Source: Longimicrobiales bacterium
Lineage (GTDB): Bacteria; Gemmatimonadota; Gemmatimonadetes; Longimicrobiales; Gaopeijiaceae
Direction of reading: 5' to 3'
NCBI GenBank assembly: GCA_029245345.1
Contig: JAQWPM010000016.1
Location: 1-39,671 of the forward strand
DNA: 39,671 nucleotides
In this document: positions 35,201-39,671 of the stretch, in pieces
Numbering within the stretch: the stretch's first letter is position 1
Layout: each line of letters opens with the position of its first letter
Program-made: the position numbers and the translations under genes
The notes under the pieces: model-generated
What the model was told of the DNA's origin: nothing
Database searches by the model: none
Seen by the model: only the letters and a program-made list of their open reading frames with translations

Positions 35201-36553
35201 CTACTGGTTCCGCGCCCAATTGATGAGCGCGCGGTTCGATTCGGTCTTCTTCATCGCACCTAATAGCTCCGTCATCGCATCCGTCGGGCCCTGACCACCG
35301 AGCTGACGACGCATGGCGTGTGACAGCCACAGCGCGTCTTCGTCCAGCAGAAGCTCTTCCTTCCGGGTCGAAGAACCCGCGATGTCGATCGCGGGATAAA
35401 CCCGCCGGTCGGCGATCTCACGTGACAGAACCAGCTCACTGTTACCGGTCCCCTTGAACTCCTCGAAGATCACCTGGTCCATACGCGATCCCGTGTCGAC
35501 GAGCGCAGTCGCGATAATCGTCAAAGAACCACCGCCCTGCGCCGGATCGATCTTCCGCGCCGACCCCAAGAAGCGTTTCGGCTTCTCGAGTGCGTTCGTG
35601 TCCAGGCCACCAGACAGCGTGCGCCCACTACCGCTGTGGGCCGTGTTGTAGGCGCGTGCCATGCGTGTGATGGAATCGAGGATGATGACCACATCCTCAC
35701 CCTGCTCCACCCGCCGTCTGGCTCGCTCGAGCGTGATCTCAGCGACCTGTACGTGGCGGTCTGCTTGCTGGTCGAACGTTGACGCGATGACCTCACCGAA
35801 CCCGCACTGCTCCATCTCGGTCACTTCCTCAGGACGCTCGTCCACGAGGAGGATCATGAGGTGGCATTCGGGATGGTTCTTTACCACGCCCTCGGCGACT
35901 GCCTGGAGAACCGTGGTCTTACCGGCTTTCGCCGGAGCCACGATCATCGCCCGCTGTCCCTTGCCAAGCGGACACAGCAGATCGATCACACGATTCGTGT
36001 AGTCGGGCTGACCCATCACTGTGCGGTCGCACTCCAAGACGAGCTGCTCGTCAGGGTGCATGGCGCTCAGGCGCTGGAAGTCCGGCCGCCGCATCGCGTC
36101 TTCGGGCGGTCGGTCGTTGATCCGTTGGATATGTGCGAGCGGCGGACTCTTGCCACTGCGGGGTGTACCCACGATTCCGACGAGTTCGTCACCGGTCCGG
36201 AGCCCATACTTCTGGATCATCCTGGAGCCGACGTAGATGTCGTCGTTGCTGGGCGTGTAGCCTGAGTCACGGCGCCGGACGAATCCGGATCCGCTACCGA
36301 GCACTTCCAATAGGCCTAGTGGCCTGGATTGCGCTTCGAGCTCTTCAGGAGTGTCTGGCAATTGCGACTGGAGTTCAGCCTCGCTTGGACCACCACCGTC
36401 GTTACCACCTTGGCCCCGGCCCTTACGGCGCCGGCGCCCACGACGACGGCTATTGTTGCCGCGTGGCTTGCCCTCTCCGTCGCCTTTTTGATTTCTTGGC
36501 GATTCGGGCACGTTATATAACCCATGTTGCGGAGCGCGGTACTGTCGTGGCAC
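35201..36553 (-). CDS. rho: Transcription termination factor Rho
   Basis: Rho is a hexameric RNA-dependent ATPase that ends transcription. Residues 1-60 of the 450-aa protein form a basic low-complexity extension ([20 protein letters not shown]). The RNA-binding OSB domain has [12 protein letters not shown] and [20 protein letters not shown]. The motor has Walker [11 protein letters not shown] (E. coli has PPKAGKT), [24 protein letters not shown], and the R-loop region [29 protein letters not shown]. The start is uncertain: GTG at 36553 opens the frame, and an internal GTG at 36511 follows a TATATAAC that could itself be a -10. The basic arm is typical of Rho in high-GC phyla. It converges with the SRPBCC gene. 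Confidence 0.95.
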
Positions 36554-36583
36554 TTCGGCACACGAGAGGCCGCAGAAAAGACC

Positions 36584-36596
36584 CCAAAATTTTTGG
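36584..36596. promoter_or_regulatory. AT-rich palindrome in the rho / aminotransferase divergent region
   Basis: CCAAAA-T-TTTTGG is a perfect odd-length palindrome, unusual in this GC-rich DNA. It lies 31 nt upstream of the furthest rho start. It could be an operator or simply a flexible AT-rich promoter element; nothing further identifies it. Confidence 0.25.
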
Positions 36597-36702
36597 AGCC
36601 TGTGGAGCTATCCTCTTCAGCCGACCAGGAGGCCGCGCTGGCGCCGATGAGTTACTGTCGGCCGGACACGAAAGAATCTTCTACTATTTTCGCTGATGAT
36701 CA

Positions 36703-36714
36703 AGACGTACGTCT
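36703..36714. promoter_or_regulatory. Perfect 12-bp palindrome before the Tat-aminotransferase gene
   Basis: AGACGTACGTCT is a perfect palindrome ending 24 nt before the ATG at 36739, in the position where a repressor would block transcription or initiation. The rest of the 36554-36738 gap holds no gene that I can see; it contains an AT-rich TACTATTTT stretch that could include a -10. Confidence 0.33.
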
Positions 36715-36738
36715 GATTCAGTTCAATTGAGGGTACGA

Positions 36739-38037
36739 ATGACTGATACGCAAACGAGCCGTCGAGGCTTTCTAAAGGTGTTAGGTGCTGGAGCCGTGGG
36801 CGGTGCCGTCTTGGGCCGGGCTACGGAGTTGAGCGCGGCGTTTGACCACTCCATCGACGGCCTGGGGTTCCGGGCTCACGACCCGGCAGCGGTCCGCCGC
36901 CTCCGGGACGAATACCTCCTCTCGCGAGACCTCATCTACTTGAACCATGCATCCATCGGGACAGCGCCCAAGGCGGTTGTCGACGCGCACGCCGGTTACT
37001 TGGGACTGTGTGAGTCCCATCCGTCGCTCTATGTATGGGGCTCAGTTTGGCGCGAGGTCGCAGAACGTGTGCGCAGTCAGTCGGCCGCACTCTTGAACTG
37101 CAACGCGGACGATCTCGCGATCACGCACAACACGACGGAAGGCTTCAACATCTTGGCTCACGGACTGCCGCTCGGGCCCGGGGACGAGATTCTTTTCAGT
37201 TCGATCAACCACTCCGGTGCGAGTGTCCCGTGGGACGTCCTGGCGGCGGATCGCGGCTTTACGGTTCGGCGCTTTCCTTTTCCGGTGGAACGCGGGGCGG
37301 AATTAACCGCCGAGGAAGTTGTTGCAGTGCACGTAGAAGCGATTCGGCCCGAAACGCGTGTGCTGGTCATCCCGCATGTCGACAACATGATCGGTCTGCG
37401 GCATCCCATGAAGGAGATCGCATCAGCGGCCCGTGCCCGTGGAGTCGAGTTCATCTTGGTCGATGGAGCGCAGTCGGTCGGCATGATCCCGGTCGACCTC
37501 TCCGACGCGGGTGTCGACGCCTACGCCATGAGCCCGCACAAGTGGCTTCAGTCTCCCAAGGGACTGGGACTCTTCTACGTCTCAGAGGCGGTACGTCCCC
37601 AATTGCCGCGCATGTGGCACAAGACGTCGGAACGCGGAATGGATGGCACTGCGCGTGATTATGAGGACTATTCGACGCGGGCATGGCCGGCCGTCGTGGC
37701 CTTCGGCGACGCGCTCGACTTCCAGGACGCTCTTGGGATGACGGAAAAGGCCCGTCGATATGAGGCTCTGTGGCATCGGGTCCGAGATCGAGTCGCGGCT
37801 GAGCCGACGCTCGAGTGGCACTCCCCCAATGATTGGGAACTTTCGTCCGTGATCATGGCCGTTTCGCGCACCGGGGTGGCGGCGCCCGAGATGGGTTCGG
37901 CCTTGTTCGGATCGATGGGGGGGGTCGTCCGCGCCTTTGGAGGCGGACTGAACTCGTTACGGATCTCTCCGAATCTTATGACGAGTGAAGACGAGCTGGA
38001 CGCCTTCCTCACAGGAATGGTGGCACACGGGCCCTAG
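36739..38037 (+). CDS. Tat-exported class V aminotransferase-like protein
   Basis: The 432-aa PLP fold-type I protein of the class V group (cysteine desulfurase / isopenicillin N epimerase-like) has a twin-arginine signal peptide (TSRRGFLKVLGAGAVGGAVLG). After it come LIYLNHASIGTAPKAVVD, AITHNTTEGFNILAHGL, EILFSSINHSGASVPWD, FILVDGAQSVGMIPVDL and the Schiff-base Lys in AYAMSPHKWLQSPKGLG. The active-site Cys loop of desulfurases is not apparent, so an epimerase, lyase or aminotransferase role is likelier. Tat export fits a PLP protein folded before secretion. GAGG stands 6 nt before ATG 36739; a TTG at 36727 is an inferior alternative. Confidence 0.87.
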   Translation: MTDTQTSRRGFLKVLGAGAVGGAVLGRATELSAAFDHSIDGLGFRAHDPAAVRRLRDEYLLSRDLIYLNHASIGTAPKAVVDAHAGYLGLCESHPSLYVWGSVWREVAERVRSQSAALLNCNADDLAITHNTTEGFNILAHGLPLGPGDEILFSSINHSGASVPWDVLAADRGFTVRRFPFPVERGAELTAEEVVAVHVEAIRPETRVLVIPHVDNMIGLRHPMKEIASAARARGVEFILVDGAQSVGMIPVDLSDAGVDAYAMSPHKWLQSPKGLGLFYVSEAVRPQLPRMWHKTSERGMDGTARDYEDYSTRAWPAVVAFGDALDFQDALGMTEKARRYEALWHRVRDRVAAEPTLEWHSPNDWELSSVIMAVSRTGVAAPEMGSALFGSMGGVVRAFGGGLNSLRISPNLMTSEDELDAFLTGMVAHGP

Positions 38038-38125
38038 GTGGGCCAGGTGTCCTTCAGGAGCGTCCCCTGTCCCTATATTTGGACATCGAACTGGGGTTGA
38101 AACAGGATGAGAGCATGTGCATAAG

Positions 38126-38142
38126 ATGTTGCGTTATAACAT
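38126..38142. promoter_or_regulatory. Inverted repeat upstream of the sigma-54-like promoter
   Basis: ATGTT-N7-AACAT (38126-38142) encloses the overlapping 8-bp palindrome GTTATAAC (38133-38140). It sits about 20-35 bp upstream of the -24 element. It may be an activator or repressor site. A TTGACA (38144-38149) also occurs here, without a convincing -10. Confidence 0.3.
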
Positions 38143-38162
38143 GTTGACACCTTAATGCGTGT

Positions 38163-38179
38163 TTGGCACAGACCGTGCA
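38163..38179 (+). promoter_or_regulatory. Sigma-54-type (-24/-12) promoter candidate
   Basis: TTGGCAC (38163-38169), five bases, then GTGCA (38175-38179) fits the consensus TTGGCACG-N4-TTGCA, with exact GG-to-GC spacing and one mismatch in each half. Transcription would start near 38190, some 25 nt before the Gly/Tyr-rich gene. A sigma-70 alternative is TTGAAA (about 38097) with CATAAG 17 bp further on. No rpoN or enhancer-binding activator is in the window. Confidence 0.45.
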
Positions 38180-38216
38180 CTTCTATGGGGCGGTGACCAC
38201 TATAAGGAGTATGACC

Positions 38217-39671
38217 GTGCGTATCCTGGCTCGAATTACATTGATCATCGCTGCGTTCTTCGCCCTTAGTTCGGCTGAAAGTCACGCGCAGGCCCACGCC
38301 TCGTTCTCCGTTGGCGTAGGCCCGCTCTTTGCCGGCGTCAGCGTCGGCATGGGTGGCGGCTACTACGATGATCGATCCCTCTTCGTTGGGACCGGTCTGG
38401 GAATGCGCCACTCTGCCCTGTACCAGGATCCGGCATATGAAATGTATTCCGAGCGTGGACGTTCCTGGGGTGGCGGCAGTTATTACGACGACTATTCGTG
38501 CTGGGACTACTACTGGGACAGCTTTTGGGATCCCTACGGAGACCCATACTACGATTGCCTGGCCTATAGCCCCTATGGGTACCGGAACTCATATCGGTCT
38601 CGTGGTGGGTTCAGCGGTGGCTGGGGTGGTTACTACGGCTCGCGCTCGGCATTCGTCTTCTGGTCAGACCCCGTCATGTCGCCCTGGGGTGGTTCGTACT
38701 GGGGATACGACCGGTATTGGGGTGGTTTCGCAGATGGCTACTACGCCGGGCGTAGTTACGGCGGATACTACGGCGCCTCTTACGGTGGCTACTACGGTGG
38801 CTACTACGGTGACTACTACAGTGGCTATGGTCGTACGCGGACGGTCTACGGAGGTGGACGCACGCGCGTGGCCATTGGCCGCCCGTCCCCCTTCGCTGGG
38901 TACGGTGTCGGCTACAAGGAGAGCCCAAGGACGGGAACCACACGCACCGCCGTACGGCGCCCGCAGGCTGGGAACGCCACGGGTGCGTCGAATGCTCCGG
39001 CTCGTGCGGGCTCTGATGGTCGGCGCACCGCGCGTCCTTCTGGGACGGACACACGCGCCGGGAACGGCAGTGCTCGTCCGACAACGGGCAGGCCTTCGGT
39101 AACGCCTCGTGTTGGACCACGTCCTTCCACCGGTCGGGGCACGCCGCCTTCTGCTCGTCCAACAACGGGTAGGACGGCCACTCCATCGGAGCGGCCCGGG
39201 ACGAGCCGGAATGGCCCGGCCGTGACTCCGCCTCGGACCCGGGCGGGCGCGAGCGCGCGTCCTGCTGACCGTGTCAGAACGGGTGGGCAGGCTTCCGGAA
39301 GTGCTCGGGTCCGCCCGGGCACCGTCCGCGCGCCGAACTCGGGCGCGCGGCCTTCGACCGGTGCGAGCCAGCCGTCCGGAAAGACCAGGGCGAGTGGAAC
39401 CCCCCGGCCCCGTCCTTCCAGTGTGCTCGGCACGCCACCCCGCACGCGGGCACCGGCAGGGGCGACGAACCGTACGCCGGCCACACGGCCCACTTCGAGT
39501 CGCACGCCCGGAACGAGAGTGGCACCGACTAGAGTTCCGGTGACACGGGCCAGGCCATCCGGCACATCGGGGCAAAAGCCAACACGGCAGGCAGTTCCGA
39601 GTCGAGGCACGTCAACGCGGTCCGCGCCGGCTCGCAGCACAACGACGCGGTCCGCACCTTCCCGGCCGGCC
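38217..39671 (+). CDS. Secreted Gly/Tyr-rich protein with long basic Arg/Pro/Thr/Ser tail, incomplete
   Basis: The reading frame stays open to the window end (at least 485 codons). A signal peptide comes first (VRILARITLIIAAFFALSSAESHAQ). A short conserved-looking part follows (FSVGVGPLFAGVSVGMGGGYYDD, HSALYQDPAYEMYSERGRSW). Residues 80-205 are rich in Gly, Tyr and Trp, with GGYYG repeats. From about 215 to the end the protein is low-complexity and strongly basic (RPTTGR, TPPRTR and SARP-like units), with almost no hydrophobic residues. No family is recognised. The likely start is GTG 38217, with AAGGAG 7 nt before it; ATG 38211 has the same sequence too close. It may be a surface, adhesive or scaffold protein (inference). 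The tail length is unknown. Confidence 0.75.
   Translation, partial: MRILARITLIIAAFFALSSAESHAQAHASFSVGVGPLFAGVSVGMGGGYYDDRSLFVGTGLGMRHSALYQDPAYEMYSERGRSWGGGSYYDDYSCWDYYWDSFWDPYGDPYYDCLAYSPYGYRNSYRSRGGFSGGWGGYYGSRSAFVFWSDPVMSPWGGSYWGYDRYWGGFADGYYAGRSYGGYYGASYGGYYGGYYGDYYSGYGRTRTVYGGGRTRVAIGRPSPFAGYGVGYKESPRTGTTRTAVRRPQAGNATGASNAPARAGSDGRRTARPSGTDTRAGNGSARPTTGRPSVTPRVGPRPSTGRGTPPSARPTTGRTATPSERPGTSRNGPAVTPPRTRAGASARPADRVRTGGQASGSARVRPGTVRAPNSGARPSTGASQPSGKTRASGTPRPRPSSVLGTPPRTRAPAGATNRTPATRPTSSRTPGTRVAPTRVPVTRARPSGTSGQKPTRQAVPSRGTSTRSAPARSTTTRSAPSRPA
38737..38831 (+). repeat. GGYYG tandem repeat block
   Basis: Repeated ggtggctactac-type units encode six spaced GYY or SYGG blocks within the secreted protein. 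The units are 9-12 nt and imperfect, so they could expand or contract by slippage. Later in the same gene, two near-identical runs encoding RPTTGR (near 39077 and 39158) recur. Confidence 0.7.

Follow-up and report, generated by a model that had tools for sequence, protein, structure and literature searches.

In this study, the gene that runs off the 3' edge of the window (the whole stretch of 39,671 nucleotides that was analysed) was investigated together with its relatives. We put at about one half the probability that it encodes a secreted envelope protein which is transcribed by RpoN within a GlrR/QseF-like envelope-homeostasis regulon and acts as a multivalent, polymer-binding glue. The regulatory part of this reading is well supported by comparison of predicted sites among genomes, and the biochemical mechanism is one that we infer. 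The product is likely to belong to the envelope and not to be a one-genome curiosity, since it is a member of a conserved family and lies behind a sigma-54 switch of the kind that serves envelope homeostasis in E. coli. In this way a curious low-complexity open reading frame becomes a testable system, with an unnamed family whose promoter and operator are defined and with what appears to be a phylum-wide regulon, in a group where next to no regulatory biology has been done.

The gene, its protein and the family

The first-pass annotation had described a secreted protein of two parts whose frame was still open at the edge, and this description stands: the signal peptide, the GGYYG array and the basic tail are all present in the sequence (Table 1), and the frame runs through 485 codons to the window end. 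The window comprises the entire contig C16, one of 30 in the draft genome, and the missing 3' end was located on contig C5, where positions 1-198 carry on the 19-residue repeat of the tail in the same frame (TTRSAPSRPATRSAPSRAP...) for 66 codons, followed by a stop and giving a C-terminus of RRAPPRRGGGN. The two contigs overlap by six bases only, within a 57-bp repeat. That they adjoin is deduced from synteny, as relatives keep the order rho, class-V aminotransferase, this gene and hutI-hutF-hutU-hutH, and in the own genome rho and the class-V aminotransferase (35201-38037) end C16 and hutI and hutF begin C5; the break is therefore taken as an assembly break inside the repeat. The protein has at least ~549 aa, a lower bound in which repeat copies between C16 and C5 are uncounted.

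Table 1. Features of the gene and of its upstream region (positions in the window, except for the continuation on contig C5)
Feature	Position	Strand	Basis or remark
Extra half-site GTGTCC	38047..38052	+	about two helical turns ahead of the main operator
Operator TGTC-N10-GACA, TGTCCCTATATTTGGACA	38068..38085	+	putative enhancer site for a GlrR/QseF-like bEBP
Third element AA-N19-TT, dyad-like, TAAGATGTTGCGTTATAACATGTTGA	38122..38147	+	between operator and sigma-54 box
Predicted sigma-54 (-24/-12) promoter TGGCAC-N6-TGC, TGGCACAGACCGTGC	38164..38178	+	conserved in homologues; rpoN in genome
Shine-Dalgarno AAGGAG	38204..38209	+	7 nt ahead of GTG 38217
CDS	38217..39671	+	GTG start, 485 codons, open at contig end
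Sec signal peptide VRILARITLIIAAFFALSSAESHAQA	38217..38294	+	sequence; pattern kept in homologues; cleavage after AQA, by eye
Gly/Tyr/Trp-rich domain, ~205 residues	38295..38912	+	alignments A1, A2
GGYYG tandem array	38736..38827	+	period 12 bp, 7.4 copies (TRF)
Junction motif SPxxG..YKExPR, domain/tail boundary	38889..38930	+	alignment A2, homologue motif table
Basic Arg/Ser/Thr/Pro/Ala/Gly tail	38931..39671	+	composition; 313 aa including the C5 piece
CDS continuation (L004)	C5:1-201		stop codon C5:199-201

The open reading frame is a real coding gene. Homologue start codons coincide with the position of GTG 38217 (V-R-T..), and for two congeneric species dN/dS comes to ~0.25 (0.145/0.59) in the N-domain and ~0.22 (0.184/0.85) in the tail, so the tail too is protein under constraint. 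The first-pass annotation had named a frame closing at once beyond the window without homologues, or codon statistics of a non-coding kind, as outcomes that would count against its reading; what was found is a frame continuing for 66 codons, a set of homologues and dN/dS of ~0.2. The high GC and the long antisense ORFs that overlap the gene could suggest that the frame is an artefact of GC-rich repeats and yields no protein, and this reading was rejected as scarcely credible in view of that selection, of the dedicated promoter, and of homologues that keep the domain, the start, the Shine-Dalgarno sequence and the C-terminus.

The Gly/Tyr/Trp-rich domain contains two conserved cysteines, residues 95 and 114, within CWDYYWDSFWDPYGDPYYDC, as well as the motif FVFWSDP..SPWGG..YW, and Gly and Tyr make up 29% and 22% of residues 121-215. 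At the junction the own protein reads YKESPR, with K234 conserved in at least 90% of alignment A2. From residue 216 the composition is Arg 17, Thr 16, Pro 15, Ala 13, Gly 13 and Ser 11%; the tail carries a net charge of +45 in its in-window part and, with the C5 piece included, consists of ~20% Arg+Lys and is nearly devoid of aromatics. A two-sequence AlphaFold model of the N-domain was uninformative on its fold (pLDDT 26).

Homologues were searched with two profiles, A1 from 13 relatives and A2 from 26 sequences including members first found via the promoter. Profile A1 matched in 27 of the 121 genomes of the same GTDB family (hereafter f1) and A2 in 46 f1 genomes when 395 genomes of the phylum were searched; outside f1 only two genomes gave A2 matches, both borderline (E 1.5e-4 and 5.8e-4), and many f1 genomes are without a detectable homologue. 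One of the relatives is Gemmatimonadetes bacterium SZUA-1190. The common plan consists of a signal peptide, a Gly/aromatic domain with two Cys, the YKE motif and a basic tail. C95 is invariant, and nearly all homologues have two Cys in the mature domain. Tail length, for which a comparison had been suggested along with the profile search, varies from 179 to 361 aa, with ~16-31% Arg+Lys and in many cases an RRxGG end; the genomes are mostly drafts, and several loci run out at contig edges, often within the tail repeats. No family had been recognised from the letters, and the databases agree: Pfam and NCBIfam gave no match for the window protein at E 1 and no family for the 26 homologues at E 0.1, and a PDB profile search gave chance matches only (E 0.21 or worse). 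As far as searched, the sequences point to an unnamed family restricted to one GTDB family of Gemmatimonadota.

The promoter, the operator and the regulon in relatives

The sequence TGGCACAGACCGTGC is the sole match to TGGCAY-N6-TGC in the window, and as a single match is what chance would give, the evidence rests on conservation across homologues. A sigma-54-like promoter had been surmised at first pass, and both the homologue comparison and a genome-scale pattern control bear it out, so that we regard the predicted promoter as strongly supported. The genome carries rpoN (PF04552, E=8.8e-63), and in the family the distance from the box to the start codon is 35-41 bp. The operator stands ~96 bp upstream of the box in the window; an exact TGTC-N10-GACA was detected 90-104 bp upstream of the box at 25 of 36 homologue loci and in none of the shuffles, and several of the remaining loci are contig-edge cases, show a TGGTAT variant of the box or have a degenerate site. 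An additional upstream GTGTCC similar to that of the window is visible in most homologues. The third element keeps a fixed position relative to the sigma-54 box, with AA at -56/-55 and TT at -35/-34 across 64 regulon promoters, one of its forms being TTGT-N4-ACAA; it gives no plain match to the IHF consensus, and it may have an IHF-like role. A stretch resembling this element, TAACTCGTTAT, is also present upstream of pilA in the own genome (L103).

The 121 f1 genomes were searched with a pattern of operator, 64-94 bp and sigma-54 box, and gave 64 matches against 4 for the reversed pattern that served as control; a stricter pattern gave 86 matches against 1 in the 395 genomes of the phylum. Among the f1 sites, most of which were read downstream, a considerable proportion stand ahead of genes of this protein family, including those of divergent members. 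Exported proteins (outer-membrane-barrel-like, lipoprotein-like, small basic and DUF4384 proteins) make up most of the other f1 targets, which also include one MscS channel and one ECF sigma factor. The 20 sites outside f1 precede genes for DUF4384 proteins, RpoE-like ECF sigma factors (three more loci), the peptidoglycan-synthase activator LpoB, lipoprotein-like proteins and small 'GMCRIWIDGVPA' proteins. Of the targets tested, Pfam confirmed ECF sigma (PF04542/PF08281), LpoB (PF13036), MscS (PF00924) and DUF4384. Among the targets read, none was recognised as a polysaccharide, pilus, pilin, secretion or holdfast gene. Judged by their sequences, the co-regulated genes (ECF sigma, LpoB, outer-membrane-like proteins and lipoproteins) point to cell-envelope homeostasis in general.

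Genes for RpoE-like ECF sigma factors stand behind the operator and sigma-54 promoter at four loci (L085, L166, L169 and L171) in relatives from several Gemmatimonadota families, with L085 assigned to ECF sigma by Pfam, and a cascade from sigma-54 to an ECF sigma factor is possible. In the own genome no second operator and promoter of this design was found, and the regulon is accordingly drawn from relatives. Two other exact TGTCC-N8-GGACA sites of the own genome fall inside rpsB and an asparagine-synthase-like gene, and were counted as chance.

Some further genes of relatives were observed behind the same type of promoter. Three loci (L167, L168 and L170) encode small exported proteins with PPGMCRIWIDGVPAxxQPAPTDC followed by a charged tail, and a fourth (L110) encodes a looser version; a Pfam scan of the L168 protein was without match. 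An outer-membrane-protein-like gene, FadL/PorV-like by eye, was found behind operator and promoter at L108 (G024:C38), in a genome that also carries a gene of the window family under the same operator and promoter.

The putative activator

In enterobacteria, the published enhancer consensus of GlrR/QseF is TGTC(N)10GACA (PMC4987338, PMC8745638). Two E. coli genes with regulatory roles in envelope homeostasis, glmY and rpoE, are activated by QseF together with sigma-54, with IHF aiding QseF at glmY; the paper on these genes gives the consensus in the form TGTN12ACA (PMC6075780). The system described here resembles this QseE-QseG-QseF system in its TGTC-N10-GACA upstream of a sigma-54 promoter, in its envelope theme and in the rpoE-type sigma among the targets, seen here in relatives; it differs in that it belongs to another phylum, has structural and secreted proteins as direct targets, and has this new protein as its best-conserved target in one family. 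From these sequence likenesses we infer a GlrR/QseF-like two-component bEBP that would answer an envelope signal. Should the activator prove GlrR-like, the control that sigma-54 exerts on rpoE in enterobacteria would be considerably more ancient or more widely distributed than the literature has it, with structural envelope proteins among its direct outputs.

Of the five bEBPs encoded in the own genome, each shares 38-42% identity with E. coli GlrR and none stands out. A histidine kinase, an AtoC/ZraR-like bEBP and a putative exported coiled-coil gene are consecutive at one locus (L091/L104; G000:C12, ~789500), a layout that recalls qseE-qseG-qseF, and the bEBP of L091 is a candidate activator. 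A different proposal is that PilR is the activator and the protein belongs to a type IV pilus regulon. PilR sites reportedly also contain TGTC, and a PilS-PilR-like pair is present (L092/L103) with the bEBP closest to E. coli GlrR; against this, TGTC-N10-GACA is absent from the 400 bp upstream of pilA and does not precede its putative sigma-54 box, and the targets read include no pilus gene, which leaves PilR a distinctly unlikely activator. In the PrsK/PrsR-RpoN regulon of PEP-CTERM proteins, a two-component bEBP and sigma-54 serve an exported protein involved in flocs (PMC9850573); the window protein is similar in having a sigma-54 promoter for an exported product and dissimilar in being without a PEP-CTERM tail. 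A PrsR-type activator was rejected, the best bEBP of the own genome scoring 404.9 bits against a TIGR02915 cut-off of 502.6.

Function and rival readings

In the mechanism that we propose, RpoN would transcribe the gene when the GlrR/QseF-like two-component bEBP senses an envelope signal, and the product would be exported by Sec and then probably form one disulfide in its Gly/aromatic domain. This domain may self-associate or pack on an envelope surface, and the tail, with a charge of about +60, may bind anionic polymers (outer-membrane glycolipid, exopolysaccharide, polyphosphate or DNA, for example), so that the protein would serve as a multivalent glue and strengthen or mend the envelope surface while the regulon is active. 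Its probable role is that of a multivalent scaffold which binds anionic envelope polymers.

The first-pass annotation had considered a matrix, a holdfast or a polyanion-binding scaffold. In the corresponding rival reading, that of an extracellular matrix, holdfast or adhesin protein, the Tyr-Gly blocks and the Arg-rich tail would undergo condensation through cation-pi contacts, and cells would thereby be stuck to surfaces or to one another. The source of this rival is the composition, which recalls Tyr/Arg systems of the FUS type (PMC5927716) and a glycine-rich cement protein of ticks (PMC11794139), and it is common for sigma-54 regulons to relate to the exterior of the bacterium (PMC3162934). 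Against it, genes for polysaccharide, pilus, secretion or holdfast were not recognised among the targets read, pilA of the own genome is without the operator, and no PEP-CTERM regulator scored above cut-off; we consider this reading rather improbable. We give similarly little credence to a periplasmic or outer-membrane stress effector or chaperone, whose basic tail would bind misfolded outer-membrane proteins or peptidoglycan without forming a matrix. The co-regulated LpoB, ECF sigma and outer-membrane-barrel-like proteins and the two conserved Cys would suit such a role, but no similarity to a known chaperone appeared in Pfam, NCBIfam or PDB sequences, and low-complexity tails of variable length are unusual among chaperones.

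The likeness to FUS and to the tick protein is one of composition only, an aromatic-Gly block beside an Arg-rich disordered segment; the window protein differs from them in being bacterial and Sec-exported, with two conserved Cys and a defined sequence profile, and homology is not expected. It is a natural test case for the question whether aromatic-cationic condensates are used by bacteria outside the cell. A bolder version of the envelope-glue reading, which we offer as speculative and doubtful, is that Gemmatimonadota possess an envelope regulon of the GlrR/QseF-RpoE kind, and that in one family this regulon chiefly yields a secreted, hitherto unnamed aromatic-cationic protein which forms condensates and seals or reinforces the outer surface under envelope stress, a structural and not an enzymatic response. 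In another family (f4) of the same taxonomic class, the operator chiefly targets DUF4384 proteins, and behind DUF4384 these have a conserved segment that is rich in Tyr and contains two Cys (YDYPRFLCYDCHTYVSY; L153-L158 and L161); they are perhaps the functional counterpart of the window protein.
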